Positions 37,192 through 53,091 of a stretch of DNA of 64,000 nt are shown in pieces (the first letter of the stretch is position 1; the number at the start of each line of letters is the position of its first letter). The stretch comes from Amycolatopsis sp. DSM 110486 (lineage in GTDB: Bacteria > Actinomycetota > Actinomycetes > Mycobacteriales > Pseudonocardiaceae). Both the position numbers and the translations under genes were made by a program. Under the pieces are notes generated by a model. The model saw nothing but the letters and a program-made list of their open reading frames with translations. It was not told where the DNA came from and ran no database searches. The stretch spans positions 7,495,001-7,559,000 of the forward strand of contig NZ_CP080519.1 in the NCBI RefSeq assembly GCF_019468465.1, written 5' to 3'.

Positions 37192-37587
37192 GCCGCCTCC
37201 ACGGGTCGGGTCGGAATCCCCGAGAGTTTGGATCCAAAACGGCGGTTCGTCAACCGGGTCCACCCTTCGGTATCGGTTCCGAAGCCTCTTCGGCCCTGCT
37301 CGGTCGCGCAGCGGTGATCATGGAAAACGCGTCGACGGAATGCGCGACCACGGCCTCGCGCACCGTGACCATGGCTGCGCGGAATGGTTGAACAGGCCGT
37401 GTCAATGGCGGGTAGCCGGAAAGTCAACATCACTGCTGACCTGCATCGATCGGTGTTGATCTGTGCGGACAATCACTCGGCAGTGACATCGCCGTGTCCG
37501 ATTCGTAATGTCGAGGCCGCTTTGCGTGCGCCGTATCCCCCGAATTCGCGGCGCGCGTTCCCCGAGCGAAGAAAATGGTGCACCAGG
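37192..37587. other. Gene-free divergent intergenic region
   Basis: 396 bp between the divergent threonine-synthase-like gene and the M15-like peptidase gene. It holds operator site 4 at 37227-37238, close to the minus-strand gene. TTGATC at 37456 could be a -35 for the plus-strand gene, but its -10 is weak. Short frames on both strands here have no ribosome-binding site and no recognisable product. Confidence 0.5.
37227..37238. promoter_or_regulatory. Perfect operator TTTGGATCCAAA, site 4
   Basis: The 12-bp palindrome TTTGGATCCAAA is the most symmetrical copy of the TGGATCCA motif in the window. It lies 36 bp upstream of the threonine-synthase-like gene's ATG. A GntR dimer site; the regulator may be the GntR at 26111 inside the operon or the one at 6941. 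Confidence 0.65.
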
Positions 37588-38431: not shown

Positions 38432-39298
38432 CTACGGGGTCGGCTTGCCCTGCTTCTCGATCTGCTGCTGGATCGACGGCCAGAACTGGTACATCTGCGT
38501 CGGGTACGGCAGGTTCGGGAAATACTTCTGGTACAGCTTGAGGAACGTGCCGTCGTTCGCGAGCGCACTGAGCTCGGTGTTGTAGGCGTCGAGGAACTTG
38601 GTCAGCTTCTTGTTGACCGCCTCGGCGCCCGGCTGGTCCTGCGGTGAGGTCAGCGCGACCTTGAGCTTGCCGGGGTGCTCGGTGAAGATCTGCCCGACGT
38701 GCGTCGAGCCGAGCACCATCGCGTCGAGGTTGCCCGCGAGCAGCTGGTTCACACCCGCGCCGTCGGTGGCCTCGGACACGAGCTGCGACGTGGTCATCTT
38801 CTTTTTCGCGAAGTCTTCCTGCGTGCTGTTCGCGCCGGCGCCCACGCGCTTGCCGGCCAGGTCCGGAATGGACTTCGCGGTCGAGCTCGCCGGGACCACG
38901 ACCACGTTCTGGCCCCAGAAGATGGCCTTCGTGAAGGCCACGCTCTTCTTGCGTTCGTCGCTCGCCACCAGGCCCACCGACATCAGGTCGTACTGACCGC
39001 TGGTGAGACCGGGGAGTCCGGCTTGGACGGTGGTCGTCTTGTAGACGATCTTGAGGTGCATCCGGTCGGCGATGAGGTTGTTCAGGTCCACGAGCAGGCC
39101 GACCGGCTTGCCGCTGGCGTCGGGGGAGACGAACGGGTAGTCGCCCGCCGTGACCGCCGCCGTGATGGTGCCGGGCTGGGCGAGACCGAAGTCGTCGCCG
39201 GCCGCGGAGTCGCCGCCGCCGCAAGCGGTGACGGAGGCGGCGGTGAGTGCGGCGAGGCCGAGCGCACCGAGCGCGCGCCGCAGGGGAAGTCGGTTCAT
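38432..39298 (-). CDS. Polar amino acid ABC transporter substrate-binding lipoprotein (family 3)
   Basis: 288 residues with lipobox TAASVTAC. SBP_bac_3 fold: GLLVDLNNLIADRMHLKIVYKTTTVQAGLPGLTSGQYDLM, then IPDLAGKRVGAGANSTQ and a long C-terminal helix. The family binds amino acids and related zwitterions. The matching permease and ATPase are encoded 3.6 kb away at 42942-44509 on the other strand; all three units carry the TATAG-N-CTATA operator, which supports one split transporter. Has its own well-formed promoter. Confidence 0.9.
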   Translation of the reverse strand: MNRLPLRRALGALGLAALTAASVTACGGGDSAAGDDFGLAQPGTITAAVTAGDYPFVSPDASGKPVGLLVDLNNLIADRMHLKIVYKTTTVQAGLPGLTSGQYDLMSVGLVASDERKKSVAFTKAIFWGQNVVVVPASSTAKSIPDLAGKRVGAGANSTQEDFAKKKMTTSQLVSEATDGAGVNQLLAGNLDAMVLGSTHVGQIFTEHPGKLKVALTSPQDQPGAEAVNKKLTKFLDAYNTELSALANDGTFLKLYQKYFPNLPYPTQMYQFWPSIQQQIEKQGKPTP

Positions 39299-39361: not shown

Positions 39362-39391
39362 ACTATAGGCTATAGAACTTCAGAACGTCAA
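39362..39391 (-). promoter_or_regulatory. Promoter of the family 3 binding-protein gene
   Basis: On the minus strand TTGACG (39391-39386), an 18-bp spacer and TATAGT (39367-39362) form a near-consensus sigma-70 promoter about 65 bp before the gene. The operator at 39363-39375 covers the -10 and part of the spacer. Confidence 0.7.
39363..39375. promoter_or_regulatory. TATAG-N-CTATA operator, site a
   Basis: CTATAGGCTATAG, a 13-bp palindrome with one central base, lies across the -10 element of the binding-protein promoter. Same core as sites at 41848, 42830 and 52035. Likely recognised by the GntR regulator encoded at 40994-41659. Confidence 0.7.
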
Positions 39392-39432
39392 CGACCTGTA
39401 GTCACGGCTTCAGTACGGCGTCTCTGGGAAGA

Positions 39433-39993
39433 TCAGTGCAGGTCGGAGGCGGTGCCGACGGCCGAGATCCGCTCGGCGAGTGCCGAGATCACGAGTCGGT
39501 ACGCGTCTCCGGTGAGGTGCAGACCGTCCTCGTGGACCGGCGCTCCGGCGGCGACGAGCGGTGCCACCGCGGCGTCGGTGTCCACCGAGTTCGCGGCCGA
39601 GACGACCTCCCGCAGCACCTGCCGGTAGGTGTCGAGCACGGCGTTCGTACGCCCGCGCTTGCCGACGCCGTCGATCTCCTCGATCGAGGGCGGCAGGAAC
39701 CCGATCAGCGTGGCCGGGGCGAAGGCGGCGGCGATCGTGCGCATGTTCTCGGCGTACGCATCGAGCTCCACGAGCCGGTCGGGCGCGCAGTCGTTGGCGC
39801 CGAAGGACAACACCACCACGTCGGGCTCGGTCTTGGCGATCGTGGCCGCGCGGCGCGCCCCGTCGTCGCTCTTCCAGCCGCCCGCGGCGCAGTTGAAGAC
39901 GAGCACGTCGCCCGCCTCGGCCTCGAGCTGGTCGATGCGGGGCTTGGTGAACCGGCCCAGCATGCTGTCGCCGAACAGGACGATCGTCTTCAC
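39433..39993 (-). CDS. SGNH/GDSL-family hydrolase
   Basis: 186 residues from a GTG at 39993; the longer frame to 40281 runs through the opposite cyclase gene and is rejected. Block I GDSMLGRF gives the nucleophile Ser10, block III GAND is present, and block V DGLHL supplies the Asp-His pair, so the active site is complete. No signal peptide. Cytoplasmic esterase or deacylase of the TesA/GDSL type. Divergent from the cyclase-family gene, with which it shares an 88-bp control region containing a degenerate operator. Confidence 0.88.
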   Translation of the reverse strand: MKTIVLFGDSMLGRFTKPRIDQLEAEAGDVLVFNCAAGGWKSDDGARRAATIAKTEPDVVVLSFGANDCAPDRLVELDAYAENMRTIAAAFAPATLIGFLPPSIEEIDGVGKRGRTNAVLDTYRQVLREVVSAANSVDTDAAVAPLVAAGAPVHEDGLHLTGDAYRLVISALAERISAVGTASDLH

Positions 39994-40014
39994 TCGTCGC
40001 CGCCTTTCACGCGG

Positions 40015-40043
40015 TTGACAATCTGGTACTTGTAGCTTAGAAA
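40015..40043 (+). promoter_or_regulatory. Probable promoter of the cyclase-family gene
   Basis: A consensus -35 TTGACA (40015-40020), a 17-bp spacer and TAGAAA (40038-40043). Transcription would begin about 30 bp before the GTG at 40082. The degenerate operator (40030-40042) overlaps the -10. Confidence 0.5.
40030..40042. promoter_or_regulatory. Degenerate TATAG-N-CTATA operator, site e
   Basis: TTGTAGCTTAGAA matches TTATAGCCTATAA at 10 of 13 positions and overlaps the -10 of the cyclase promoter, between the divergent SGNH and cyclase genes. Weaker than the other four copies. Confidence 0.4.
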
Positions 40044-40081
40044 ATACCAAAACTCGGAGGCGAGCCGGAAGAGGTGGAGCG

Positions 40082-40987
40082 GTGGCGCGTGACTGGACCC
40101 GCGCCGAGGTCGAGGAGCAGCTCCACGGCCGCAGCAACTGGGGCCGCTGGGGCGCCCACGACCAAGTCGGCGCCGTCAACCTGATCACCGCCGCCAAGCG
40201 GGCCGAAGCCGCGCAACTCGTGCGCACGGGCCGCTCGGTGTCGCTCAGCCGGCCGTTCCCGACCCGCCCGCACGTGGACAACCCGCGGCCGGCCTCGCAC
40301 TACACGACCAAAACGCCCCGCGGCACCGGCGGGATCTCGGGCGACTACTACGGCATCGAGTACCACGGTGTCGCCTCCACCCACGTCGACGCGCTCTGTC
40401 ACGTCTGGGACGAGCGCGGTTTGTGGCAGGGCCGCGACCCCGACGTCGAGCTCACCTCGCGCGGCAGCCGCTGGGGTTCGGTGGACCACTGGCGCGAGGG
40501 CATCGTCACTCGCGGGGTCCTGCTCGACGTGGCGGCCTTCCGCGGCGAGCCGTATGTGACTCTCGACCGCCCGGTGCACGGCGACGAGCTGGAGGAGATC
40601 GCCGAGGCGCAAGGCGTCTCCGTCGGCCCCGGCGACGCGGTGGTCGTCCACTGCGGACGCGACGCGTGGGACCGCGAGAACCCGCCTTGGGGCACCGAGG
40701 AGAGCCGGCCGGGCCTGCACGCCTCCTGCCTGACGTTCCTGCGCGACCACGACTGCGCCGCCCTGGCGTGGGACATGCTCGACCGGACCCCGAACGACGG
40801 GGGAGTGCCGTGGACCGTGCACGGCGCGATCTTCGCCTACGGGCTGGCCGTGGTGGACAACTGCGCGCTCGAACCACTGGCCGCCGCGTGTGCCGAGGAA
40901 GGTCGTCACGAGTTCCTCTTCGTAGTGGCGCCGCTCGTGGTCGAGGGCGGGACGGGTTCGCCGGCCAACCCGCTGGCGCTCCTGTGA
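40082..40987 (+). CDS. Cyclase-family metal-dependent hydrolase (kynurenine-formamidase-like)
   Basis: 301 residues, GTG start behind GGAAGAGGTGG. The metal-binding motif of the family is clear at 95-107: His95, then STHVD with His101 and Asp103, and His107. WGRWGAHDQVGAVNLIT at the N-terminus is typical of the longer actinobacterial/proteobacterial branch. The family hydrolyses formamides, cyclic amides or esters of small acids. Its place beside a GntR regulator and an amino-acid importer suggests it acts on a breakdown product of the imported compound. Substrate unknown. Confidence 0.85.
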   Translation: MARDWTRAEVEEQLHGRSNWGRWGAHDQVGAVNLITAAKRAEAAQLVRTGRSVSLSRPFPTRPHVDNPRPASHYTTKTPRGTGGISGDYYGIEYHGVASTHVDALCHVWDERGLWQGRDPDVELTSRGSRWGSVDHWREGIVTRGVLLDVAAFRGEPYVTLDRPVHGDELEEIAEAQGVSVGPGDAVVVHCGRDAWDRENPPWGTEESRPGLHASCLTFLRDHDCAALAWDMLDRTPNDGGVPWTVHGAIFAYGLAVVDNCALEPLAAACAEEGRHEFLFVVAPLVVEGGTGSPANPLALL

Positions 40988-40993
40988 GCGTGC

Positions 40994-41659
40994 TCAGGCC
41001 TCCAGCGCGGCGATCGCCCGGCGGCCGAGGCTGCCGAGCACATGCTTCTTCATGGTCCGCTCGGCCGTGCGGGCGTCACCCGAGATCACGGCTCGGGCGA
41101 TCTCGATGTGCTCGCGCCGCACGCGTTCCTGGTCCTGCGGGGAGTCCGGTTTGGACTGCAGGCCGATCAGCCGGTAACGGTCGGCTTTGTCCCAGAGCCC
41201 GTCCAGCAGCGTCATCAGCAGCGGGTTGTGCGAGGCCGTGTAGACGCTGCGGTGGAACGCGCGGTGCACGAGCAGCGAGTCGAAGCCGGTGGACGTGCTC
41301 AGTGGCTCGAGGTCCTTGAGCGCCGACTCGATCGCCGCGATGTCGGCCTCGGTCCGGCGCGTGGCGGCGAGCTTGGTGGCCAGCGGGTCGAGGCGTTCGC
41401 GGACCTCGAAGAGGCTGCGGGCCTCCTCGGCGTTGAGCCGGCTCACCCGCGCGTCGCGGTGCGCGTCGATCGTCACGAGCCCTTCGGCGTCGAGCCGCCG
41501 CAGCGCCTCGCGCAGGGGAGTGGTGCTCACGCCGAGCTCGGCCGCGAGCTGCTCCTGGGAGATGGACTGGCCCTGGATCAGCTCGCCGGCCAAGATGCGC
41601 CGGCGCAGCTCCTCGTAGACGTACGCGTTCTTCGTGAGGGCTGGGCGGGGGTGGGTCAT
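40994..41659 (-). CDS. GntR-family transcriptional regulator (FCD type)
   Basis: 221 residues, ATG start. Winged helix at about 10-75 (NAYVYEELRRRILAGELIQGQ, then GVSTTPLREALRRLDAEGLV) and an FCD domain with probable metal ligands in VHRAFHRSVY and EHIEIARAVI. It stands at the centre of a group of transcription units that carry the TATAG-N-CTATA palindrome, which makes it the best candidate for their repressor. Its own upstream region (41660-41700) has no copy of the site. Convergent with the cyclase gene, six bases apart. Confidence 0.9.
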   Translation of the reverse strand: MTHPRPALTKNAYVYEELRRRILAGELIQGQSISQEQLAAELGVSTTPLREALRRLDAEGLVTIDAHRDARVSRLNAEEARSLFEVRERLDPLATKLAATRRTEADIAAIESALKDLEPLSTSTGFDSLLVHRAFHRSVYTASHNPLLMTLLDGLWDKADRYRLIGLQSKPDSPQDQERVRREHIEIARAVISGDARTAERTMKKHVLGSLGRRAIAALEA

Positions 41660-41847
41660 CGGCCTGACAATCTCTCTGGGCGGACAAAGGGGGACCGCAA
41701 GGATATCGGTCTCCCTCCCGCTCGGTGGGCAGGCTGTGGCCTGCGGCCTGCATCCTGTCGTGCCGGTTGAGGCGGCCTCGTGGTCCGCTCGCCCGGAGTT
41801 GTCGCATCACACAGTGTCAAACGGTGTCTTCAGGTCCTCGAATGAAC

Positions 41848-41860
41848 CTATAGCCTATAT
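41848..41860. promoter_or_regulatory. TATAG-N-CTATA operator, site b
   Basis: CTATAGCCTATAT lies 80 bp before the alpha/beta-hydrolase ATG. Its TATA elements could double as the -10. Same core as sites a, c and d. Confidence 0.65.
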
Positions 41861-41939
41861 CGTCTGCGTGCGTAGTGCACCGCTTGTGCCCGTCCCCGAA
41901 CTCTGACCCGCCCCCGAACTCTGAGAGGCCCCGGCTGCC

Positions 41940-42773
41940 ATGACCACCACCGAACCCGACTCGCAGGGAGCCCACTTCGTCGGCGCGACCCCGTTCTTCG
42001 CTTCCGGCCACGACCAGCGCCTGTCCTACGGGCTGTTCGTGCCGGAGGACCACACACCCGATGCCGCCCCGTTGCCGCTGGTCGTGGTGCAGCACGGCAC
42101 GGGCCGCTCGGCCGAGCGCTACCGCAACCAGTGGGCGGACTTCGCGACCCGCAACGGGTGCGTGATCCTCACGCCGCTGTTCCCGGCCGGCATCGGCAAG
42201 CGGCGCGAGCTGCACAGCTTCAAGTTCCTGGAGTACGACGGGATTCGCTTCGACGAAGAGCTGCTGCACATCGTCGACGAGGTCGGCGAGGAGTTCAACA
42301 CCGAGACCGAAACCTTCTTCCTGCACGGTTTCTCCGGCGGCGGGCAGTTCGCGCACCGGTTCTTCTACGCCCACCCCGACCGCCTCGCCGGCATCTCGAT
42401 CGGCGCGCCGGGCCGCATCACGCAGCTCGATGACTCGCTGCCGTGGTGGCTCGGCACCGGGGGTTTCCGCGAGAAGTTCGGCATCGAGCTCGACCTCGCG
42501 GCCCTGCGCCGCGTGCCGGTGCAGATGGTGGTCGGCTCCGCGGACGTGGAGACGTGGGAGATCAACAACGCCGGCGGTCCGAACTGGATGGACGGCGTGG
42601 AGAAGACCGGCCGCACGCGCATCGAGCGCATCGAGACGCTGCGTGACAGCTTCGAGCGCAGCGGGCTCTCCGTGCGGTTCGATGTGGTGCCCGGGGTGGC
42701 CCACCAGGGCAGCTTGGTGATCCCCGTGGTCCAGGACTTCTTCGCCGGCCTGCTCGCGAGCCGTGTGAAGTGA
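41940..42773 (+). CDS. Alpha/beta-hydrolase (feruloyl-esterase/PHB-depolymerase-like)
   Basis: 277 residues. VVQHGTGRSAERYRNQWADFA is the oxyanion-side segment, the elbow GFSGGG gives the nucleophile Ser132, VVGSADVET is the acid-loop region and PGVAHQG supplies the His. The layout fits short esterases related to feruloyl esterases and PHB depolymerases, but without a signal peptide, so the substrate is inside the cell. First gene after operator site b and 168 bp before the ABC permease gene, which has its own promoter. Confidence 0.82.
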   Translation: MTTTEPDSQGAHFVGATPFFASGHDQRLSYGLFVPEDHTPDAAPLPLVVVQHGTGRSAERYRNQWADFATRNGCVILTPLFPAGIGKRRELHSFKFLEYDGIRFDEELLHIVDEVGEEFNTETETFFLHGFSGGGQFAHRFFYAHPDRLAGISIGAPGRITQLDDSLPWWLGTGGFREKFGIELDLAALRRVPVQMVVGSADVETWEINNAGGPNWMDGVEKTGRTRIERIETLRDSFERSGLSVRFDVVPGVAHQGSLVIPVVQDFFAGLLASRVK

Positions 42774-42785
42774 GCACTTCAGTCG

Positions 42786-42813
42786 TTGACTATCTTGTCG
42801 AATCTGCTACCGT
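42786..42813 (+). promoter_or_regulatory. Probable promoter of the ABC permease-ATPase operon
   Basis: TTGACT (42786-42791), a 16-bp spacer and TACCGT (42808-42813). The operator at 42830-42842 lies just past the likely transcription start, a position suited to repression. Confidence 0.45.
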
Positions 42814-42829
42814 GAGCGCCACGTCACAG

Positions 42830-42842
42830 TTATAGTCTATAA
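42830..42842. promoter_or_regulatory. TATAG-N-CTATA operator, site c
   Basis: TTATAGTCTATAA is a perfect palindrome around one central base, about 100 bp before the permease ATG. The best-formed copy together with site d. Confidence 0.7.
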
Positions 42843-42941
42843 GACGAACTGCCGGCCGGTACCGTCGCCGACCCCGCTGAGCCCGGGTCCGCGCGCACTC
42901 CAGCGGTCCGCGGCCGAACCGAGGTAAGGACACCTGGTCCC

Positions 42942-43724
42942 ATGGGCGATTTCCTGCATTCCTTTTTCGATATCCACCAGATCCTCGCCGTGCTGCCCTC
43001 GCTGCTCGGGGAGGGCCTGCGCAACACGCTGATCATCGCGTCGCTCGCGCTGGTCCTCGGGCTGGTGGTGGGCCTGCTGCTGGCGATGCTGCTCATCTCC
43101 ACGCGCTGGTGGCTGCGAATGCCGGCCCGCGTCTACGTCGACGTGTTCCGCGGCCTGCCCGCCATCGTCACGGTGAGCCTCATCGGCATCGGGCTGCCGT
43201 CGGCGGGCGTGCGCTTGTTCGGCCAGTCGCCGATGGGCTACGCGATCCTCGCGGTGGGCCTGATCAACGCGGCCTACATCGCGGAGATCTTCCGCTCGGG
43301 CATCCAGAGCGTGCCGCCCGGCCAGGCCGAGGCCGGCCGCAGCCTCGGGATGAGCCACCTGAGCACGCAGCTGCTCGTCGTGGTGCCCCAGGGCATCCGC
43401 AACGTGCTGCCGGCGCTGGCGAACCAGTTCATCGTGGCCGTGAAGGAGAGTTCGCTGGTGTACCTGCTCGGCCTGGCCGTCGGTGAGCGCGAGCTGTACT
43501 TCATCGCGCAGCAGGCGCAGTCCATTTCGTACAACTCGTCGTCGTTCGTGGCCGCGGGCCTGGTCTACATCGTGTTCACGGTGCCGCTGACGCACCTGGT
43601 GAACTGGTTCGACAAGCGGCTCCGCGAAGGCCGCCGTCCGGCGAGCGGCGGTGGCGGCGGCCCGGCCGCGACGCCGCAGCCGCTGGTCCCCGTCGGTGCC
43701 ACCGGATTCGAAGCGGGAGCGTGA
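42942..43724 (+). CDS. Polar amino acid ABC transporter permease (HisM/GlnP type)
   Basis: 260 residues. [31 protein letters not shown] is the typical first helix pair of His/Glu/Gln permeases, [18 protein letters not shown] the conserved segment after helix 2, and [31 protein letters not shown] the EAA loop. Works as a homodimer with the ATPase whose GTG overlaps its stop by four bases. The binding protein is probably the one encoded at 38432-39298. Confidence 0.92.
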
Positions 43725-44509
43725 ACGTGAACCAGGTAACGACTTCTCCGCAGGCGCAGGACGAGGCGAAGGCCGACGTCCCCGCGATCGAGCTGGTCGA
43801 CATCTGCAAATCCTTCGGCCTCGTCGAGGTGCTCAAGGGCGTGTCGGCGACGGTCGCGCGCGGCGAGACCGTGTGCCTCATCGGCGCCTCGGGGTCGGGC
43901 AAGTCGACGCTGCTGCGGTGCGTGAACCTGCTGTCCCCGCCGACGTCGGGCACGATCCGGTTGCACGGGCAGACGATCACCGACCCGAAGGTGGACCTCA
44001 ACGCCGTGCGCTCGCGCACCGGCATGGTGTTCCAGCACTTCAACCTGTTCCAGCACAAGAGCGCGGTGGACAACATCGCGCTCGCGCTGCGGCGCGTGCG
44101 CAAGATGTCGCGCGAGGAAGCGCGGGAACGCGCGATGCAGCAGCTGGACAAGGTCGGCTTGCGGGCGCTGGCGTCCGCACGGCCCTCGCACCTGTCCGGC
44201 GGGCAGCAGCAGCGCGTGGCCATCGCGCGCTCGCTCGCGATGGAGCCCGACATCATGCTGTTCGACGAGGCGACCTCGGCGCTCGACCCCGAGCTGGTGA
44301 AGGGCGTGCTCGACGTGATGCGCGACCTCGCGACGTCGTCCGGGATGACGATGATGGTGGTGACGCACGAGATGAACTTCGCCCGCGAGGTCGCCGACCG
44401 CGTGCTGTTCGTGGACAGCGGCGTGATCGCGGAGGAGGGGCCGGCCCGGCAGCTGCTGACCGACCCGCAGACGCCGCGGCTGAAGTCGTTCCTTTCGCAG
44501 GTCCTGTAA
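43721..44509 (+). CDS. Polar amino acid ABC transporter ATP-binding protein (GlnQ/HisP type)
   Basis: 262 residues, GTG start overlapping the permease stop. Walker [11 protein letters not shown]-loop [11 protein letters not shown] (the HFNLF form is typical of amino-acid importers), signature LSGGQQQR, Walker [15 protein letters not shown] and switch His in [10 protein letters not shown]. All motifs intact. Co-transcribed with the permease and, 27 bp later, a beta-lactamase-like hydrolase. Confidence 0.93.
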
Positions 44510-44536
44510 TCCGGTAAGAAGTTCCGCACGAGAACG

Positions 44537-46012
44537 GTGAGCATGAGCAACGCCTTCCACGACCCGGCGCTGGACCCGGGCCCGGTCCACACCCTGCTGC
44601 AGACGATGGCCGAGCGCGGGATGCGTGTGCACTCCCTGCTCGTGCACCGCCACGGGCGGACCGTGCTGGACCTGTGGCAGTGGCCGCACGAACCGGGCCT
44701 GCGGCACAAGGTGCACTCGGCCACGAAGAGCTTCACGTCCGCGGCCGTCGGTTTCGCCGAGGCCGAGGGCCTGCTCTCCCTCGACGACCCCGTCGTCGGC
44801 TTCTTCGCCGACCGGCTGGGCGGCGAGCCGAGCGAGAACCTCGGCCGGATGCGCGTGCGCGACCTGCTGACGATGTGCACGGGTCACGCGCGCGGGCTGT
44901 CGGGCGCCACCACGCGGCTGCGGCGCACGGGCTGGGTCGACGAGTTCCTCGAGGAGCCCGTGGTCGAGCTGCCGGGGCGCAACTTCACCTACAGCAGCAC
45001 CACGAGCCACGTGCTGTCGGCGATCGTGCAGCAAGTCTCAGGTCAGCCGGTCGACGAGTACCTGCGGCCACGGCTGTTCGACCCGCTGGGGATCACGGAC
45101 TACACGTGGGAACGGGACCCCGAGGGCGTTTCCAGCGGCGGCAACGGGCTTTCGCTGCGCCCGCGCGATCTGCTGAACTTCGGCGTGCTGCACCTGCAGG
45201 ACGGCGTGTGGGACGGTTCCCGCGTGCTGCCGGCCGGCTGGGTGCAGAAGGCTTCGGCGCTGCACGTGCGCCGCGCGATCAGCGGGGAGTGGAACGGCAA
45301 GGAGCTCGTGCCGCCCGCGCCCGACGTCGTCGCCGACGAGGGGTACGGCTACCAGTTCTGGACGACCGAAGCCGGGATCTACAGCGCTTCGGGCATTTTC
45401 GGCCAGGAATGCATGGTCTTCCCCCGCCACGACGGCGTGGTCGTGATCACCGGCGCCATGGGCGACGGCAGCTACCACGACCTGCCGGGGATGTTGCGGT
45501 CCGCGTTCACCACGGCGTTCGAGAGCCCGGCTCGGGAACAGTCCGAAGTAGACGATCTGGCCGCGTGGGTGGACCGCGTGCAGGAGCCCGAAACCGTCGG
45601 CGCCGCGGTCCAGAGGGCCGGGTTCACGGCGACGTACGACTTCGAGCCCAACGAGCAGGGTCTCGTGTCGCTGGCGGTCGAGGTCCGCGACGGCTCGGTG
45701 CACGTCGTCGTCGAGGACGAGCTGGGCCGGCACCCGATCGACCACGGCGTGGGCACCTGGACGCGCCAGGACACCGGCGTCAGCGTGTGGCGCCTGCACC
45801 ACTCCTACCAGGACCCGACGGCTGCCGTCCTCGCCGCCGGGCAGTGGTGGTCGGCCGACGAGCTGCACCTGACGTGGCACTTCCTGGAGTCACCGTTCGT
45901 CGACCGGCTCGACCTGGCCTTCGACGACACCGGCGTCACGGTCGGCCACGCCACGAACGTCAACTCCGGGCCGACGACGCTGCCGCCGGCGCGCGGCGAG
46001 CTTCGCAAGTAA
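44537..46012 (+). CDS. Serine hydrolase, class C beta-lactamase/esterase family
   Basis: 491 residues from a GTG at 44537; the ATG at 44543 is equally possible. The SxxK motif is Ser61-Ala-Thr-Lys64 in KVHSATKSFTSAAVG, and the second-motif Tyr is likely in FTYSSTTSH. The catalytic domain ends near 330; a C-terminal beta-rich domain of about 150 residues follows (WVDRVQEPETVGAAV onward). There is no signal peptide, so it is probably a cytoplasmic esterase or amide hydrolase, not a resistance enzyme. It is the third gene of the importer operon and is followed by a terminator. Confidence 0.87.
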   Translation: MSMSNAFHDPALDPGPVHTLLQTMAERGMRVHSLLVHRHGRTVLDLWQWPHEPGLRHKVHSATKSFTSAAVGFAEAEGLLSLDDPVVGFFADRLGGEPSENLGRMRVRDLLTMCTGHARGLSGATTRLRRTGWVDEFLEEPVVELPGRNFTYSSTTSHVLSAIVQQVSGQPVDEYLRPRLFDPLGITDYTWERDPEGVSSGGNGLSLRPRDLLNFGVLHLQDGVWDGSRVLPAGWVQKASALHVRRAISGEWNGKELVPPAPDVVADEGYGYQFWTTEAGIYSASGIFGQECMVFPRHDGVVVITGAMGDGSYHDLPGMLRSAFTTAFESPAREQSEVDDLAAWVDRVQEPETVGAAVQRAGFTATYDFEPNEQGLVSLAVEVRDGSVHVVVEDELGRHPIDHGVGTWTRQDTGVSVWRLHHSYQDPTAAVLAAGQWWSADELHLTWHFLESPFVDRLDLAFDDTGVTVGHATNVNSGPTTLPPARGELRK

Positions 46013-46023
46013 TCCCTCGGCCC

Positions 46024-46067
46024 CCGGCCGTGAGGTCTGCCGCACCGACGGCGGACCTCACGGCCGG
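46024..46067. terminator. Bidirectional hairpin terminator
   Basis: CCGGCCGTGAGGTC at 46024 pairs perfectly with GACCTCACGGCCGG ending at 46067, and the intervening TGCCG/CGGC can extend the stem. It lies between the convergent serine hydrolase and kinase-aminotransferase genes. Confidence 0.85.
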
Positions 46068-46076
46068 TTTCAGTTG

Positions 46077-48374
46077 TCAGGCCCGGAGTTCCGCCAGCGC
46101 ACGCCGCAGCCGCTCCAGGAACTGGCTCACGTGCGTGTCCTCCCACACCAGCGGCGGCCGCACCTTCAGCACGTCACCGCGCGGGCCGGTGGACCCGGCG
46201 AGCACGCCCTGCCCGACCAGCTCCGAGAGGAGCGCGCGCGTGACTTCGCGAGACGTCGAGGCACCCGAGCCGAGCACGTCGACACCCGCGAGCAGCCCGG
46301 TGCCGCGGACCTCGCCCAGCAGCGGTTCCTCCGCGGCCAGCGCTCGCAGACCCTCCCGCAGGAACGTGCCCGTCGCGGCGGCGCGCGCGGGCAGGTCGGT
46401 GAGGCCGAGGACGTCGAGCACCGCGTGGCCGGCCGCGGCCGCCGCCGGAGTGGCGGCGAAGGTGGAGAAGTACTCGTAGCTGCCGGCGAGCGCGTCGGCG
46501 ATCTCGCGCCGCGTCACGACGGCGCCGATCGGGTAGCCCGCGCCCATCGGCTTGCCCAGCGTCACGAGGTCGGGTGTCACGCCGGCGAGCAGGAAGCGCC
46601 ACAGCTGCGGGCCGCTGCGGCCGTAGCCCGACTGGACCTCGTCGGCGAGGTACAGCGCGCCCGCCGTGTGGGCGCCCGAGACCAGGCCGGCCACGAACTC
46701 GCCGGGCACGTCGAGGATGCCTTCGGAGGTGAACTGCGAGTCCGCGAGCACGAGGGCCGGACGCTCACCGGCGGCGCGCAGGGTCTCGTCCGCCCGGTGG
46801 ATCCGTTCGGCCGCAACGGTTTCCGTCAGCTCGGGAGCCGGGCCGCGCGGTGCTTCGAACGTCGCGACGTGGGCGGGCCGGTAGCCCGCAGGCCACTCGT
46901 TCGAGCTCAGGTCCGCCATCCACTTCGACGCCCCGTGGTAGGCGTGCTCCGCGATTACGGCCGCGCCCGCGCCGGTGTACTCCGTGGCCAGGCGCCACGC
47001 CAGCTCGTTGGCCTCGGTGCCGGACGTGGTGAACAGGACTGTGTCGAGCGGTGCCGGCATGGTCGCGAGGATGCGCTCGGAGAGCTCGACGATCCCCGCG
47101 TGCAGGTAGCGCGAATGCGTGTTGAGCTGCGCCAGCTGCAGGTTCACCGCCTGCGTCACGGCGGGGTGCGTGTGGCCGATGACCGCGACGTTGTTGTACG
47201 CGTCGAGGTACCGCGCGCCGTCGCGGGCGTAGAGCCACGGCCCTTCGCCGCGCACGATTTCCAGCGGCCGCCGGTAGAACAGCGGGGAGAGCTTGCCGCC
47301 CATGGCCTGCGCGCGGCGCGCCGGAAGGCTGTCCGGCGAGATCGCCGCCGTGAGGTCCCGCGTGCCCGCCAGCCGCGCCAGCCGGTCGGCGAGCTCCCGC
47401 ACGGACAACGCCGACAGCAGCTCCAGCGCCTGCTCGCTGTTGGTGTCGTACTGCGTGATGTAGCGGTGGTTGTCCGCGTGCGGCCCGCGCCGGGTCGCCG
47501 AGACCGCGAGTGTCGTGAGCAGGCGCGCGATCACCAGCTCGCCCAGCACCGCCACCTCCGCCGGCGACAGCGAGCGGTGCCGCTGGTAGCCGCGCAGCAC
47601 CGCGTCGGTGAGGCGCCACAGGCGATCCGCGTCGCCGCCGCTGAAGCGCAGCACGGAGGTCAGCGTCACGGCGAGGTCGGCGACGGCGGCCGTGTGGTGC
47701 ATGTCGCCGAAGTCGATCACGCCGGTCACGCTCGCACGCGAGGCCAGCACGTTGGTGAGGGTCACGTCGGCGTGCTGCACACCCGACGGGAGCGTGGCGG
47801 TGGCCGCCAGCGCGGGGGCGACGCGCTGGGCGAGCTCGCCCAGCCGCCCGGTCGCGATCCCGGCCGCCGTCAGGACTTCCGGCATCCGCCGGATGTCCCA
47901 CATCAGCGTCCGCCCGGCCGAGGGGTGGAAGAACCCTTGCAGCGCCACGGAAACGCGCGCGGCCACCGCGCCGACCTGCGCGGCGAGGTCGGGATCCAGC
48001 GGTCCGCCTTCGAGCGGTGACCCGGGCAGCAGCGTGATCAGCCGCGCGAGGCATTCGCGTCCGGCGTCGTCAAGCGGGCGCGCGACGGGTTCGCCCGCCG
48101 TGGTCGCGACCGTCTCCGGCACCGGGAGCTCCGGGTCGGCTGCGTGCACGTGCTCCAGCGCGCGGGTCTCCATGTCCACGACGTCAGCCTGTTCGGCGGG
48201 GTTGGAGATCTTGAGCACGAACCGGCCGTCGACGAGCACGTTGAGATCGCGTTCGCTGTCGAGCGGCTTGAGTACCGGGTCGGTGAGCGCCCAGTGCTCG
48301 CCGAGCACGGCGTGCAGGCCCTCGGTGGAGAACTTCGGAGCCGGCTCGGCGAAGATGCCGGTGGCGGTGGTCAT
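46077..48374 (-). CDS. Fusion of APH-type kinase and class III PLP enzyme (hydroxylysine/ethanolamine kinase-phospholyase-like)
   Basis: 765 residues in two domains. Residues 1-330 are an aminoglycoside-phosphotransferase-fold kinase: FVLKISN (ATP-site Lys), His201-Ala-Asp203 and Asn in the catalytic loop, and Asp221 in VIDFGD. Residues 340-765 are a class III aminotransferase-fold PLP enzyme: NNVAVIGHTHP, TSGTEANELAWR, LADEVQSGYGR and the PLP Lys608 in TLGKPMGAG. In animals, hydroxylysine kinase and the phospholyases AGXT2L1/2 are separate proteins of exactly these families; they phosphorylate hydroxylysine or make an aldehyde and ammonia from O-phospho amines. The fusion suggests phosphorylation then elimination of an imported hydroxy-amine. 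Exact substrate unknown. Confidence 0.85.
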   Translation of the reverse strand: MTTATGIFAEPAPKFSTEGLHAVLGEHWALTDPVLKPLDSERDLNVLVDGRFVLKISNPAEQADVVDMETRALEHVHAADPELPVPETVATTAGEPVARPLDDAGRECLARLITLLPGSPLEGGPLDPDLAAQVGAVAARVSVALQGFFHPSAGRTLMWDIRRMPEVLTAAGIATGRLGELAQRVAPALAATATLPSGVQHADVTLTNVLASRASVTGVIDFGDMHHTAAVADLAVTLTSVLRFSGGDADRLWRLTDAVLRGYQRHRSLSPAEVAVLGELVIARLLTTLAVSATRRGPHADNHRYITQYDTNSEQALELLSALSVRELADRLARLAGTRDLTAAISPDSLPARRAQAMGGKLSPLFYRRPLEIVRGEGPWLYARDGARYLDAYNNVAVIGHTHPAVTQAVNLQLAQLNTHSRYLHAGIVELSERILATMPAPLDTVLFTTSGTEANELAWRLATEYTGAGAAVIAEHAYHGASKWMADLSSNEWPAGYRPAHVATFEAPRGPAPELTETVAAERIHRADETLRAAGERPALVLADSQFTSEGILDVPGEFVAGLVSGAHTAGALYLADEVQSGYGRSGPQLWRFLLAGVTPDLVTLGKPMGAGYPIGAVVTRREIADALAGSYEYFSTFAATPAAAAAGHAVLDVLGLTDLPARAAATGTFLREGLRALAAEEPLLGEVRGTGLLAGVDVLGSGASTSREVTRALLSELVGQGVLAGSTGPRGDVLKVRPPLVWEDTHVSQFLERLRRALAELRA

Positions 48375-48408
48375 GCTGGGGAGCTTCCTTTCGGCGGAGA
48401 CCCGCGCC

Positions 48409-49134
48409 TCAAGACGGCGCGGGCGGGTCGTCGGTCAGCGGGTCGGGCGCGAGCACCTCGAGGTCCACGCGCGGGAACAGGTACCGGCCGGGCAGCCCGG
48501 CCTCGATCGTGAACGGCCGGTCGTGGCCGGGGTACACCACGTCGGCCCGGCTCCGCACGAGCTCGATCGACGCGGCGGCCGCTTCCTCGCTCGCCGCTGT
48601 GGTGGCGCGGCCGGCACGCAGGGCGCGGGAGGAGGGGACGGCGTCGCCGGTGAGCAGCGCCGTGCCGTCGGCGGTCTCGACGGTGAGGCCGAGCGAACCC
48701 GCGGTGTGGCCGGGCAGCCCGGTGATCGTGACGCCGGGCGCCAGCTCGAGCCCGTCGATGCTGCCTTCGTGCAGTGCCAGTCCGGTGAAGATCGCGTCCG
48801 TCCACGGAGGAGCCACCGGGTCGCCGGGCGCGCGCCCGCGTTCGGCCGGGTGCAGGAACACCTCGGCGTGGCCGAAGAGGTCGGCGTTCTGCACGTGGTC
48901 GTAGTGGGCGTGGGAGAGCACCAGCGTGTCGACGTCGCGCACGCCGAGCCCGTGGCGGGCCAGCGCCCGGTGCAGCGCGCGGCGGCGGCCCGCGTGACCG
49001 CAGTCGAACAGGATGCGGCGCCGCGGCGACTGCACGAGGTAGACGCCGCAGAACCCGATGCTGCCCTGGTCGGACGAGAGGCCGTAGCCGAGCAGCAGCG
49101 GTTCGACGACGGGCGCGGGATCAGTCAAGCTCAC
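48409..49134 (-). CDS. Metallo-beta-lactamase-fold hydrolase
   Basis: 241 residues from a GTG at 49134 that lies 14 bp inside the end of the aconitase gene. The metal motif SHAHYDH is complete (HxHxDH), followed by the His in GLPGHTAGS, the Asp in LLTGDAVPS and the final His in VYPGHDRP. This pattern fits lactonases, glyoxalase-II-like thioesterases and N-acyl-homoserine-lactonase-type enzymes. Translationally coupled to the aconitase and 34 bp before the kinase-aminotransferase gene, so all three form one operon. Confidence 0.87.
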   Translation of the reverse strand: MSLTDPAPVVEPLLLGYGLSSDQGSIGFCGVYLVQSPRRRILFDCGHAGRRRALHRALARHGLGVRDVDTLVLSHAHYDHVQNADLFGHAEVFLHPAERGRAPGDPVAPPWTDAIFTGLALHEGSIDGLELAPGVTITGLPGHTAGSLGLTVETADGTALLTGDAVPSSRALRAGRATTAASEEAAAASIELVRSRADVVYPGHDRPFTIEAGLPGRYLFPRVDLEVLAPDPLTDDPPAPS

Positions 49135-52015
49135 CTCGCAGGATCAGGCGGTGGACGTACGGCAGCACCCCGCCGTTCGCGTAGTAGGTGGCTTCGCGCG
49201 GGGTGTCGAGCCGGGCGCGCACGGAGAACTCGAACGCCGGTCGGCCCGCCGGGCGCACGCGCACCGTCAGCGGCCGCGCCGGATCCTCGACGACGTCGGC
49301 GATCCCGGTGAGGTCGAACTCCTCCGTGCCGTCGAGCCCGAGCGAGGCCGCGCTGTCGCCGTCGAGGAACTGCAGCGGCAGCACGCCGAGCGCCACGAGG
49401 TTGGACCGGTGGATCCGCTCGAACGACTGCGCCAGCACGGCTTTCACCTTCAGCAGCGCGGTCGTCTTCGCCGCCCAGTCGCGCGACGAACCCGTGCCGT
49501 ACTCCTGGCCGGCGATCACGATCAACGGCACGCCGGCCGCGGCGTAGGACTGGGAAGCCTCGTGGATGGGCACCAGCGCGCCGTCGCGCGTGAAGTCGGG
49601 GGTGACGCCGCCGCCGGCGTCCGGGGCGAGCAGGTTGGCCAGCCGCGGGTTGGCGAACCCGCCGCGCACCATCACCTCGAAGTTGCCGCGGCGTGAGGCG
49701 TAGGTGTTGAGGTCGGTCTCGCCCAGCGCCGTGAGGTAACGCCCGGCGCTGCTCGCCGCGGGGATGCGGCCGGCGGGGCTGATGTGGTCGGTGGTCACGG
49801 AGTCGCCCAGCAGCAACAGCGTGCGCGCGCCGGTCACGTCGGTTGGCGCGGCGACGGTTTCGGTGACCTCGTCGAGGAACGGCGGGCGGCGCAGGTACGT
49901 CGAGTCCGGCTCCCACGCGAAGTGGTGGCCGTCGGACTCGGGCACGCCGGCCCAGTGCTCGTCGCCGCCGAACACGTCGGCGTAGGCCTCGCGGAACAGC
50001 TCGGGCGTGAGGTGCGCGCGCACGACCTCGTCGATCTCGGCGTCGTCCGGCCACAGGTCCGCGAGCAGCACGGGCTGGCCGTCGGCGTCGACCCCCAGCG
50101 GCTCGCTGGTCAGGTCGTGCTTGACCGAACCGGCCAGCGCGTAGGCGACGACGAGCGGGGGAGAGGCGAGGTAGTTGAGGGAGACGTCGTTGTTGATGCG
50201 GCCGTCGAAGTTCCGGTTGCCCGACAGCACCGACGCCACCACGGCGCCGCGCTCGGCCACCGCTTCGGCGGCGCTGGGCAGCAACGGGCCGGAGTTGCCG
50301 ATGCACGTCATGCAGCCGTAGCCCACGAGCTGGAAGCCCAGCTCGTCGAGCGGCCCGGTCAGCCCGGCGCGCGCCAGGTACTCGGTGACGGTCTTCGAAC
50401 CCGGCGCGAGGCTCGTCTTCACCCACGGCTTCGCGGTGAGGCCCCGCGCGCGGGCGTTGCGCGCGAGCAGACCCGCGGCGACCATCACATGCGGGTTGGA
50501 GGTGTTGGTACACGAGGTGATCGCTGCAATGGCTATCGCACCGTCAGCCGCGGCTCCGCCGGGCCCTACGGTGCTATCGCCATCGCTGTGTTTTTTGGCC
50601 CCGGCTCCGCCGGGGCGTGCGAGATCGCCTTTGAGCCGGCTTCCGGATTGGGCAGTCGGATCGGCCGGGGGCCGATCGGACCGCCCCATCCGGAAGCCGG
50701 CGCGATCTCGCTGGTGGGTCGCGTCGACGGAGTCGGGTTCTTGATGGTGGGGTGGCTCGGGGGACGGTGCTTCACCGCGCGAGGAGCGCACGTGCTCGAT
50801 TGCGGCCGTGGCGTTGGCCGGCACGGCGGCGAGCGGCACGCGGTCCTGGGGCCGGCGGGGGCCGGCGAGGGAAGCCGTCACAGTGGAGAGGTCGATCCGC
50901 AGGCGCTCGTCGTAACGCAAGTCCGCCGAAGGATCGTGCCAGAGGAGCTGTTCCTTCGCGTACTTCTCCACGGAGGCGACGTGGTCCGGCGTGCGGCCGG
51001 TGAGGCGCAGGTAGCCGGTCGTCGCGGCGTCGATGGGGAACATCGCCGCGGTGGCGCCGAACTCGGGGCACATGTTGGAGATCGTCGCGCGGTGCGCGAG
51101 CGGGATGCGCGCCACGGCGTCGCCGGTGAACTCCACGAACTTCCCGACCACGCCGTGCGCGCGCAGGGTTTCCACGACCGTGAGGACGAGGTCGGTCGCG
51201 GTGACGCCGGGGCCGAGCTCACCCGTGAGCTCCACGCCGACCACGGGCGGCACCAGCATGCTCAACGGCTGGCCCAGCAGCGCCACTTCCGCCTCGACGC
51301 CACCGACACCCCACGCCAGCACACCCAGCGCGTTGACCATCGTCGTGTGCGAGTCGGTGCCGGCGCAGGTGTCCGGAAACGCCCAGCCGTCGCGGCGTTC
51401 CACCACGCTCGCGAGGTACTCGAGGTTGATCTGGTGCATGATCCCGGTGCCGGGCGGCACCACGTGCACGCCGTCGAGCGTCTCGCCCCACTTGAGGAAG
51501 CGGTAGCGCTCGGCGTTGCGGGTGTACTCGATCTCGACGTTGCGGCGCAGGGCGTCGGCCCGGCCGGAGACCTCCGTGGCCACGGAGTGGTCCACGGTCA
51601 GGTGGCTCGGGATCCGCGGGCGCACGCTGCGGGGATCGCCCCCGGCCGCGGCGACGGCGTCGCGCAGCGCGGCCAGGTCCGTGAGCACGGGCACGCCGTT
51701 GGTGTCGTGCAGGAACACCCGCGACGGGGAGAAGGCGACGACGTCGTGGGCCGCGTCGGACCCGCCGTGCACCAGAGCCGTGATGTGCTCGGCCGTGACG
51801 GTGTGGCCGTCTTCGTGGCGCAGCAGGTTCTCCAGCAGGATCTTGTGGCTCAGGGGCAGCCGCTCGGAGTCGGGGACGGCGTCGAGGCGGTGCACCCGAT
51901 AGCGCTCGCCACCGAGGTCGAGGCGGGCGAGGCTGCCGAAGCTGTCGGGTCCTGAGGTGGCTGCGGTGTTCGGCGCCGGGGTGTTCGGCGCGGCGGTATT
52001 CGGCGCTGTGCTCAA
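49121..52015 (-). CDS. acnA: Aconitate hydratase A-type enzyme with an inserted low-complexity segment
   Basis: 964 residues from a TTG at 52015 behind AAGGAG; AcnA is usually about 900-940. It interconverts citrate and isocitrate or related acids with a 4Fe-4S cluster held by Cys502 (TSCTNTS) and Cys568/Cys571 (GCMTCIGNSG). IPSHLTVDHSV, AGTDSHTTMVNALGV and GTGSSRDWAAK mark the substrate site. An in-frame insertion of about 70 residues (near 420-490) lies in the variable loop before TSCTNTS; its DNA contains a 93-bp palindrome. It belongs to a three-gene operon under operator site d, so it may be a pathway-specific aconitase rather than the main TCA enzyme. Confidence 0.9.
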   Translation of the reverse strand: MSTAPNTAAPNTPAPNTAATSGPDSFGSLARLDLGGERYRVHRLDAVPDSERLPLSHKILLENLLRHEDGHTVTAEHITALVHGGSDAAHDVVAFSPSRVFLHDTNGVPVLTDLAALRDAVAAAGGDPRSVRPRIPSHLTVDHSVATEVSGRADALRRNVEIEYTRNAERYRFLKWGETLDGVHVVPPGTGIMHQINLEYLASVVERRDGWAFPDTCAGTDSHTTMVNALGVLAWGVGGVEAEVALLGQPLSMLVPPVVGVELTGELGPGVTATDLVLTVVETLRAHGVVGKFVEFTGDAVARIPLAHRATISNMCPEFGATAAMFPIDAATTGYLRLTGRTPDHVASVEKYAKEQLLWHDPSADLRYDERLRIDLSTVTASLAGPRRPQDRVPLAAVPANATAAIEHVRSSRGEAPSPEPPHHQEPDSVDATHQRDRAGFRMGRSDRPPADPTAQSGSRLKGDLARPGGAGAKKHSDGDSTVGPGGAAADGAIAIAAITSCTNTSNPHVMVAAGLLARNARARGLTAKPWVKTSLAPGSKTVTEYLARAGLTGPLDELGFQLVGYGCMTCIGNSGPLLPSAAEAVAERGAVVASVLSGNRNFDGRINNDVSLNYLASPPLVVAYALAGSVKHDLTSEPLGVDADGQPVLLADLWPDDAEIDEVVRAHLTPELFREAYADVFGGDEHWAGVPESDGHHFAWEPDSTYLRRPPFLDEVTETVAAPTDVTGARTLLLLGDSVTTDHISPAGRIPAASSAGRYLTALGETDLNTYASRRGNFEVMVRGGFANPRLANLLAPDAGGGVTPDFTRDGALVPIHEASQSYAAAGVPLIVIAGQEYGTGSSRDWAAKTTALLKVKAVLAQSFERIHRSNLVALGVLPLQFLDGDSAASLGLDGTEEFDLTGIADVVEDPARPLTVRVRPAGRPAFEFSVRARLDTPREATYYANGGVLPYVHRLILRGELD
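50619..50711. repeat. 93-bp palindromic element inside the aconitase gene
   Basis: GCGAGATCGC and GCCGGCTTCCGGA at 50619-50647 are repeated in reverse complement at 50688-50711, and the inner 19 bases on each side (TCGGATCGGCC type) also pair with few mismatches around a GGG loop. Only a 6-base bulge (CTTTGA) breaks the outer stem. Shorter hairpins flank it (CCCCGG-CTCCG-CCGGGG at 50599-50615). It keeps the aconitase frame open. It resembles REP/MITE-like palindromes. Confidence 0.75.
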
Positions 52016-52034
52016 GGCACTCCTTCCATACAGC

Positions 52035-52047
52035 TTATAGGCTATAA
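52035..52047. promoter_or_regulatory. TATAG-N-CTATA operator, site d (divergent)
   Basis: TTATAGGCTATAA lies between the divergent aconitase (start 52015) and Ser/Thr dehydratase (start 52123) genes. A perfect -10 TATAAT (52043-52048) overlaps it on the plus strand. One site could control both directions. Confidence 0.7.
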
Positions 52048-52122
52048 TAAGCTCGGAAGTGAGACCAGTGGCCCTGGCGGAGCGTCCAGGGCCCCATCCG
52101 GAGAACCCCCGAGGAGCCCAGC

Positions 52123-53091
52123 GTGCCCACCCTCTTCGACCGCATTCTCGACGCGCACCAGGGCATCCGCCCGCAGGTGCCGGTGAGCACGCTCGAACGC
52201 AGCCGGCTGCTGTCGGACGAGCTCGAGTGCGATGTGTGGCTCAAGACCGAGCACCTCATGCCCACCGGTTCGTTCAAGGTGCGCGGGTCGGCCAACAAGA
52301 TCCGCGTGCTCGGCGAGAGCGCGAAGCGGACCGGTGTGATCACCGCGTCGACCGGCAACCACGGCCAGGGCGTGGCCCGCGCCGGCAACCTCGCCGGGGT
52401 CGGGGTCACCGTGTATGTCGCCTCCTACACCACGCCGGCCAAGATCGCCGCGATCCGGGCGATGGGGGCCGAGCTCGTGGTGGTCGAGGGCGGTGCGCTC
52501 GACGCCGAGCAGGAGGCGCGCCGGCAGGCGGAGCGCCTCGGCAAGCCGTACGTGGCGCCCTACAACGACCTCGACACCGTCGCGGGCCAGGGCACGCTCG
52601 GCGTCGAGCTGGCCGAGCAGGCGCCCGACCTCGACGCCGTGTTCATCTGCACCGGGGGCGGTGGCCTGATCGGCGGCACGGGCACGGCGCTGAAGCAGCT
52701 GAGCCCGCGGACGAAGGTCGTCGGCGTGTGGCCCGAGGCCTCCACCTGCATGCTCGACTCGCTGAAGGCCGGCGAGATCATCGAGACGCCGGAGTTCCCC
52801 ACGCTGTCCGACGGCTCGGCCGGCGCGGTGGAGCCTGGCTCCGTCACGTTCGGAATCTGCCAGGAAGTGATCGACGAGACGGTCACGGTCACCGAGCCGG
52901 AGATCGCCCGTGCCATGCGGAAGATCGCCGAGGGGGAGCGCTGGATCGTCGAAGGCGCCGCCGGTGTCGCGGTCGCGGGTCTGATCCGCACGGCCGAGCA
53001 GTACCGGGGCAAAAAGGTCGCGGTCGTCCTTTGTGGACGGAATGTGGCGCTCGAGACGTTCCTGGGCGCGATGGCTCTCGCGCAGGAGTGA
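52123..53091 (+). CDS. Threonine/serine dehydratase-family PLP enzyme
   Basis: 322 residues, GTG start after GAGGAG. PLP fold type II: Schiff-base Lys in MPTGSFKVRG, phosphate-binding loop CTGGGGLIGG, and STGNHGQGVA. Length fits catabolic dehydratases (IlvA without the regulatory domain, TdcB, or the EutB-like hydroxyectoine enzyme). It should deaminate a beta-hydroxy amino acid to an oxo acid. Divergent from the aconitase operon and under the shared TATAG-N-CTATA site. A paralogue is encoded at 55719. Confidence 0.87.
   Translation: MPTLFDRILDAHQGIRPQVPVSTLERSRLLSDELECDVWLKTEHLMPTGSFKVRGSANKIRVLGESAKRTGVITASTGNHGQGVARAGNLAGVGVTVYVASYTTPAKIAAIRAMGAELVVVEGGALDAEQEARRQAERLGKPYVAPYNDLDTVAGQGTLGVELAEQAPDLDAVFICTGGGGLIGGTGTALKQLSPRTKVVGVWPEASTCMLDSLKAGEIIETPEFPTLSDGSAGAVEPGSVTFGICQEVIDETVTVTEPEIARAMRKIAEGERWIVEGAAGVAVAGLIRTAEQYRGKKVAVVLCGRNVALETFLGAMALAQE

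Follow-up and report, generated by a model that had tools for sequence, protein, structure and literature searches.

The locus studied here raises the question of why a short AT-rich palindrome, TATAGNCTATA, recurs upstream of genes for a split importer, several hydrolases and an aconitase paralogue, and which protein might act through it. It lies in Amycolatopsis sp. DSM 110486, in a stretch of 64,000 nucleotides (assembly GCF_019468465.1, contig NZ_CP080519.1, positions 7,495,001 to 7,559,000), hereafter the window. In our view, these genes very likely form a cluster-specific, probably autoregulated catabolic regulon under a GntR-type regulator with an FCD domain (FCD-GntR) encoded among them, with operators at TTATAG-N-CTATAA. 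Judging from sequence comparison, this repressor very probably binds at the exact palindromes. A similar picture had been drawn in an earlier note made from the sequence of the window.

Exactly four copies of the palindrome occur in the window, with the 11-mers starting at 39364, 41849, 42831 and 52036. The earlier note had placed the corresponding 13-mers at 39363, 41848, 42830 and 52035 and a 10-of-13 copy at 40030, and all of these were recovered. The four exact sites are intergenic and lie within one cluster, and the distances from their centres to start codons are 26-195 bp (binding protein 71 bp, esterase 86, GntR 195, permease 106, aconitase 26, dehydratase 82). The genome scan proposed in the earlier note, covering 10,984,156 bases, returned the same four exact sites and no other, and for four sites scattered at random the chance of all falling within 12.7 kb is about 6e-9. 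If one mismatch is allowed, 4 scattered extra matches appear outside the cluster, which are regarded as background because the reversed control pattern gives more (8). Since exact sites are confined to the cluster and one-mismatch sites are at background level, a genome-wide regulon was rejected. Among 296 genomes of the class, 9 contain the exact palindrome, four times in this genome and once in each of the eight others. The palindrome itself is rare, as 50 matches to the reversed control pattern are present in the 80 genus genomes that are compared below.

The overlap of the palindromes with -10-like elements at two promoters could suggest that they arose by chance or are nothing but TATA promoter sequence. 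However, no exact match was obtained in 100 shuffles of the window against four in the real one, none exists elsewhere in the genome, and both palindrome halves are conserved, also at 42830, where the site lies downstream of a promoter-like pair. The restriction to four sites in the genome and the co-occurrence with the GntR across the genus refute such an origin, to which we assign a negligible probability. The judgement of the earlier note that chance was very unlikely for sites found only upstream of genes thus stands.

The distribution of the palindrome in related genomes points to the protein that would recognise it. Of the 80 genus genomes, all five that encode a GntR with 80-100% identity contain the exact palindrome, as against none of the 75 others, two of which hold a GntR with 49% identity, and all 13 exact matches in these genomes fall in the GntR cluster. 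The probability of this 5-of-80 coincidence is 4e-8, an optimistic value since the relatedness of the genomes is ignored. A broader comparison used 78 GntR relatives from named genomes, of which 57 are treated here as the clade (loci L005-L060 and L081) and 21 are more distant (L061-L080 and L082). In the 300 bp preceding the GntR gene, a site with at most two mismatches was found in 35 of the 57 clade loci versus 3 of the 21 distant loci, and with at most one mismatch in 21 versus none. Within the own genome, the next GntR paralogue shares 38% identity, and no other close member of the clade is encoded. Both the winged helix and the FCD domain of the window protein exceed their cut-offs (27 for PF00392 and 24.3 for PF07729). 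The co-occurrence in the genus, the sites in the clade and the distance of the paralogue support the proposal of the earlier note that the FCD-GntR at 40994 is the probable repressor.

Alternatively, the palindrome might be bound by another regulator, for example the RpiR-family protein at 54802-55698 or a GntR paralogue, and the FCD-GntR would be a mere neighbour. An RpiR match is also found near some related clusters, and besides the GntR itself, 30 proteins of the genome match it at E-values up to 1e-10, those at 7079 and 26153 being encoded in the window. Nevertheless, sites next to the GntR gene are also found where an RpiR match is lacking, as in loci of Geodermatophilus, Nocardiopsis and Lentzea, the other two GntRs in the window carry SRLP and SPTP instead of the STTP recognition helix, and the palindrome tracks the GntR at 40994 one to one in the genus. 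With even the nearest paralogue so distant, we regard a different binding protein as quite improbable.

Several findings weigh against the assignment of the palindrome to the FCD-GntR. G045, a genome from the same order, and eight other genomes of the class each carry a single exact palindrome, and no homologue of the tested window genes was found in the 20 kb around that of G045. For 22 of the 57 clade GntRs, there is no site with at most two mismatches within 300 bp upstream; four of these loci (L017, L020, L040 and L045) have sites with at most one mismatch elsewhere, near the aconitase gene. The Kribbella loci mostly contain diverged versions of the site only. In the window, the start codon of the GntR gene is 195 bp from its site, so autoregulation is less certain here than in the relatives. 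Furthermore, the matrix described below found 15 positions with at least 12 bits in 354 kb of control loci outside the clade, which are less GC-rich. G045 has overlapping TATAG boxes at a pitch of 7 bp (9196, 9203 and 9210 in L107:9196-9220) in a stretch of 57% GC.

For a graded view of the sites, a position matrix was built from 26 unique sites of other genera, taken from the 32 of 54 loci with at most two mismatches; these training sites are the best matches to the same pattern, so that they come from independent genomes, while the choice of the motif is not independent. Their counts yield the consensus TTATAG-N-CTATAA. The four exact sites take the first ranks in the window (42830 with 25.8 bits, 52035 with 24.8, 41848 with 21.5 and 39363 with 18.1), followed by the 40030 copy (13.85 bits) and a third box at 52029 (13.3), and the next position reaches 7.5 bits. 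The best positions in five base-shuffled windows scored 9.5, 10.0, 10.6, 11.0 and 17.1 bits, the highest of which nearly reaches operator 1 (18.1) and exceeds the 40030 copy (13.9). Because one of the five shuffles reached 17.1 bits, this copy is not above chance on score alone. It overlaps a TTGACA-17-TAGAAA promoter pair recognised by eye (TTGACA at 40015), and the block is conserved in the genomes G028 and G091, but its matrix score there is 6.4 bits. The 40030 copy may be a promoter rather than an operator.

The four strong sites are kept in two sister genomes (G028 and G091); conservation in related strains was a check proposed in the earlier note. Operator 1 is exact in both and has one mismatch in the Streptomyces locus L005. 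As noted before for position 39362, it covers a near-consensus -10: the TTGACG-18-TATAGT promoter on the minus strand is the sole sigma-70-like match of the promoter scan in 15.2 kb, with 0.3 expected, and its -35 (TTGAC) is conserved in G028, G091 and L005. Operator 2 is exact in G028 and has one mismatch in G091. It does precede the esterase gene, as the earlier note had it, and the same site also lies upstream of the GntR gene, which had been missed. Operator 3 is exact in both genomes and starts 16 bp after a TTGACT-16-TACCGT pair, which was recognised by eye and is below the threshold of the scan. The exact site of operator 4 is kept in G028, G091, G083 and G069. It includes a TATAAT (52043-52048) at the dehydratase promoter, and a third half-box at 52029, TACAGCTTATA with 2 mismatches, overlaps the 52035 site at a pitch of 7 bp and had also been overlooked. 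This third box recurs at the aconitase/dehydratase site of the same four genomes and, at the same pitch, at sites in L007, L017, L020, L040 and L045, whereas the other three sites of the window consist of two boxes each. Since CTATAG is itself palindromic, sites can extend in steps of 7 bp.

Because the operators cover a -10, contain a TATAAT or follow a promoter-like pair, their positions fit repression by blocking of the polymerase, and we infer repression rather than activation. The GntR might instead act as a ligand-dependent activator in the manner of CitO, an FCD regulator of citrate use that activates in its citrate-bound form (PMC4746285; this and the other papers are cited from excerpts). 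However, CitO protects regions upstream of its promoters, from -41 to -65 and -51 to -74 (PMC4746285), in contrast to the operator positions relative to the putative promoters here. Activation by the GntR is accordingly considered improbable. The coordinates of all features are given in Table 1.

Table 1. Genes, predicted operators and promoter of the cluster, in order of position in the window.
Feature	Position	Strand	Evidence or location
Family 3 solute-binding protein of polar amino acid type	38432..39298	minus	PF00497 90.1 bits
Promoter TTGACG-18-TATAGT of solute-binding protein gene	39362..39391	minus	promoter scan
Operator 1 (predicted), CTATAGGCTATAG	39363..39375		ahead of the solute-binding protein gene, whose -10 it covers
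GDSL hydrolase, GTG start estimated	39433..39993	minus	PF13472 52.4 bits on frame 39433-40281
Weak operator-like copy, TTGTAGCTTAGAA, 10/13 match	40030..40042		between GDSL and cyclase genes
Cyclase-family protein, putative metal hydrolase	40082..40987	plus	PF04199 51.8 bits
FCD-type GntR, proposed regulator of all sites	40994..41659	minus	PF00392 60.5 bits, PF07729 92.1 bits
Operator 2 (predicted), CTATAGCCTATAT	41848..41860		between GntR and esterase genes
Esterase, polyhydroxybutyrate (PHB)-depolymerase-like, below family cut-off	41940..42773	plus	NF050058 49 vs cut-off 150 bits
Operator 3 (predicted), TTATAGTCTATAA	42830..42842		before permease operon
ATP-binding cassette (ABC) permease	42942..43724	plus	PF00528 95.5 bits
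ABC ATPase, polar amino acid type	43721..44509	plus	PF00005 123 bits
Serine beta-lactamase-fold hydrolase, putative end of permease operon	44537..46012	plus	PF00144 112.7 bits
APH kinase-class III aminotransferase/phospholyase fusion, putative end of aconitase operon	46077..48374	minus	PF01636, PF00202
Metallo-beta-lactamase-fold (MBL) enzyme	48409..49134	minus	PF00753 73.1 bits
Aconitase paralogue, HDTNGVP signature	49121..52015	minus	TIGR01341 1057.8 vs cut-off 945 bits
Operator 4 (predicted), TTATAGGCTATAA 52035-52047 plus box TACAGCTTATA 52029-52039	52029..52047		divergent aconitase/dehydratase promoter region
Threonine/serine-type dehydratase, pyridoxal phosphate (PLP)-dependent	52123..53091	plus	NF005292 453.4 vs cut-off 371 bits

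With operon membership deduced from gene overlap and direction, the controlled units would be the binding protein; the GntR and esterase; permease, ATPase and hydrolase; aconitase, MBL enzyme and kinase-phospholyase; and the dehydratase. A terminator-like hairpin (46024-46067) follows the serine beta-lactamase-fold hydrolase gene. The best NCBIfam match of the ATPase is GlnQ, below the GlnQ cut-off, and the best solved relative of the kinase-phospholyase fusion is the phospholyase 5g4i. Gene order and sites are kept in G028 and G091 and largely in the Streptomyces loci L005 and L007, while they are reduced in G083 and G069. The importer is split, with the binding-protein and permease/ATPase genes kilobases apart and a site upstream of each, as previously described. 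This pattern is found in all five examined clusters that hold both parts (the window, G028, G091, L005 and L007). In L007, a pair of sites is likewise present ahead of an operon encoding isocitrate-dehydrogenase-like, aldehyde dehydrogenase, cupin and cyclase proteins. The pathway unit postulated in the earlier note is supported by synteny and the conserved strong sites, with the kinase-phospholyase and the MBL enzyme included only through the putative aconitase operon. As for the hydrolases counted in that unit, the GDSL and cyclase pair is tied in only by the weak 40030 copy.

Further genes flank the cluster on both sides. To the right (53157-60324), there are genes for a gamma-glutamyltransferase, the RpiR regulator, a second PLP dehydratase, an M14 carboxypeptidase and hydrolases, without TATAG sites; this flank may represent a broader island for the catabolism of peptides or amino acids. 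Directly to the left (34353-37263), genes for a family-5 (oligopeptide-type) solute-binding protein and a further PLP enzyme are located.

The recognition of such an operator would differ from what is usual in the subfamily. The operator consensus of FCD regulators is TKGT/ACMA, with BioR and NanR as accepted exceptions (PMC4494728). The window operator, TTATAGNCTATAA, lacks these boxes, which are typical of the subfamily, but not defining. The recognition helix reads STTP in 55 of the 57 clade GntRs and in none of the 21 distant ones, the usual form being SRTP, whose arginine contacts DNA in FadR. An aspartate in the wing is present in 56 of 57 clade GntRs versus 0 of 21 distant ones, 19 of which have a glycine there. 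A glycine at one position of the domain and an arginine at another have been tied to the G/C pair of the outer box (PMC4494728). If the positions are mapped in this way, the loss of such residues would be coherent with the loss of the GT/AC boxes. Additional half-boxes, spaced at 7-12 nt, have already been described for the family (PMC4494728). A search of the open-access literature with variants of the exact motif and its N form revealed no paper whose title and abstract deal with a GntR operator.

Among known systems, FCD regulators of the FadR subfamily that govern local catabolic regulons, for instance LldR, GlcC and HypR, share the architecture, local carboxylate or amino-acid targets and weaker extra half-boxes (PMC4494728); the lack of TKGT/ACMA and the STTP helix distinguish the regulator described here. 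BioR (TTATMKATAA) likewise combines an FCD domain with an AT-rich palindrome without GT/AC boxes (PMC4494728), but its site has ten bp, its targets are biotin genes, and it is described as limited to certain alphaproteobacteria (PMC4554459). NanR also uses repeated boxes (GGTATA) at short pitch near promoters, on which several dimers may pack (PMC8012715). However, these are direct repeats of a non-palindromic box, whereas CTATAG is palindromic and three of the four sites here have two boxes. CitO of Enterococcus faecalis needs a metal, Arg97 and His191 for its response to citrate (PMC4746285), which the invariant residues of the clade GntRs resemble. It differs in activating the cit operons (PMC4746285) and is likened to the window GntR by description, not by sequence.

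The most frequent companion of the clade GntRs found is an aconitase, with a tblastn match in the fetched flank of 38 of the 57 loci, including matches cut by the end of the locus (32 of 57 when a length filter is applied); about a third have no aconitase within the stretch fetched. The own genome has five PF00330 matches, of which two are in frames of more than 900 residues (the window enzyme and C1:9426800). Two AcnA-like genes each were found in six genomes of the genus with a clade GntR (four with 80-99% and two with 49% identity), versus one each in the two genomes checked without it. The window enzyme retains the [4Fe-4S] cysteines and the DSH, NRNFxGR and GSSR motifs. It meets the AcnA cut-off and has the compared catalytic motifs of AcnA, but differs in one tract, in which the GntR-linked second paralogues have HDTNG[VI]P instead of QDFTGVP. 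This signature was present in 32 of 34 linked aconitases (HDTTSTP in the other 2), and QDFTGVP in 9 of 9 housekeeping enzymes, which were sampled in one genus only; frames of at most 780 or at least 1150 residues, such as those of L006/L110, L007, L035 and the split L105, were dropped from this comparison. Presumably, the altered tract lies near the active site, as placed by Gln72 of pig aconitase. Of the 120 nearest database proteins listed, 117 carry HDTNG[VI]P, and the 3 others are shorter and without such a motif; the names among those listed are aconitate hydratase or aconitase, and one aconitate hydratase A / 2-methylisocitrate dehydratase.

An unrooted tree with 43 rows places the 34 linked and the 9 housekeeping aconitases on opposite sides of a branch supported at 100/100. 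The linked enzymes may still not be one clade, since the tree is unrooted, the housekeeping enzymes stem from one genus and two linked ones (L014 and L023) have long branches. The gene environment also varies. In the Nocardiopsis locus L010, genes of a TctABC-type tricarboxylate transporter adjoin the aconitase gene, with a one-mismatch site upstream of TctC; L011 has the same aconitase, GntR and TctABC gene groups and site, and L009 has a TctC. In L018, L025 and L026 (Cryobacterium, Nonomuraea and Naasia), the clade GntR is accompanied by genes for a 3-oxo-tetronate kinase and aldolase, Ldh_2 or isocitrate-dehydrogenase-like enzymes in varying combinations; these loci represent a separate branch within the regulator group. 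The aconitase of G028 (L105:7135-9881) is in two frames (7135-8454 and 8445-9881) with stops on read-through, due to a sequencing error or gene decay, while it is in one frame in the window and G091. Residues ~401-488 of the window enzyme form a long linker between the halves, which is poorly alignable and at which matches to relatives break.

The linked aconitase could simply serve as a spare enzyme during growth on citrate, with the cluster degrading an ordinary citrate conjugate. The preserved catalytic and cluster-binding motifs, the passed AcnA cut-off and the TctABC genes nearby in other genera agree with this. The distinct tract, common to 32 of 34 linked and 0 of 9 housekeeping enzymes, argues against it, although a different substrate is not thereby proven. 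A spare aconitase is a serious possibility, to which we give somewhat less than an even chance. Alternatively, an actinobacterial GntR subgroup with the operator YTATAG-N-CTATAR, extended in 7-bp steps, might sense a tricarboxylate other than citrate and control HDTNG[VI]P aconitases isomerising it. This would constitute a parallel catabolic route for a citrate analogue, in which an isocitrate-dehydrogenase-like enzyme often follows and lineages have gathered their own transporters and hydrolases. We put this combined proposal forward tentatively. In the open-access literature, the only literature searched for this, no description of the GntR subgroup or of the HDTNG[VI]P aconitase group was found. 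Nothing decisive was found there on readings as a siderophore, phosphonate (phosphinomethylmalate isomerase, FrbA) or hydroxylysine/ethanolamine pathway either, and therefore no substrate is named.

All 37 aligned clade GntRs share H132, H136, H184, H206, R87 and LWDKADRYR, and H184 and H206 are separated by the same 22-residue step as in CitO and TM0439. Of these residues, H136, H184, H206 and R87 would make up a putative pocket of three His and one Arg for metal and carboxylate. Since this pocket stays the same across the clade whereas the transporters and hydrolases differ, the effector is probably connected with the most frequent companion, the aconitase paralogue. We read the regulator as a probable repressor that senses a tricarboxylate-like compound and controls the use of that compound. 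According to this proposal, a dimer of the FCD-GntR would bind the TTATAG-N-CTATAA operators covering or directly following the cluster promoters, and would thereby block RNA polymerase at the binding-protein, GntR/esterase, permease, aconitase and dehydratase units. The repressor would be released by a carboxylate effector entering the FCD pocket, probably together with a metal; the most likely effector is a citrate-like tricarboxylate that serves as substrate or product of the aconitase paralogue. The cell would then import the effector compound or a conjugate of it and hydrolyse it, and the aconitase paralogue, the kinase-phospholyase and the PLP dehydratase may process the pieces.

This kind of system is already known, and it is the changes in the operator and in the reading domain that set this one apart. 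The regulator and its predicted operator form a pair in which the DNA motif departs from the rule of the subfamily together with the residues of the reading domain. The regulation would tie scattered genes, namely those of the split importer, the hydrolases, the kinase-phospholyase and the aconitase paralogue, into a pathway that is missed by annotation alone.

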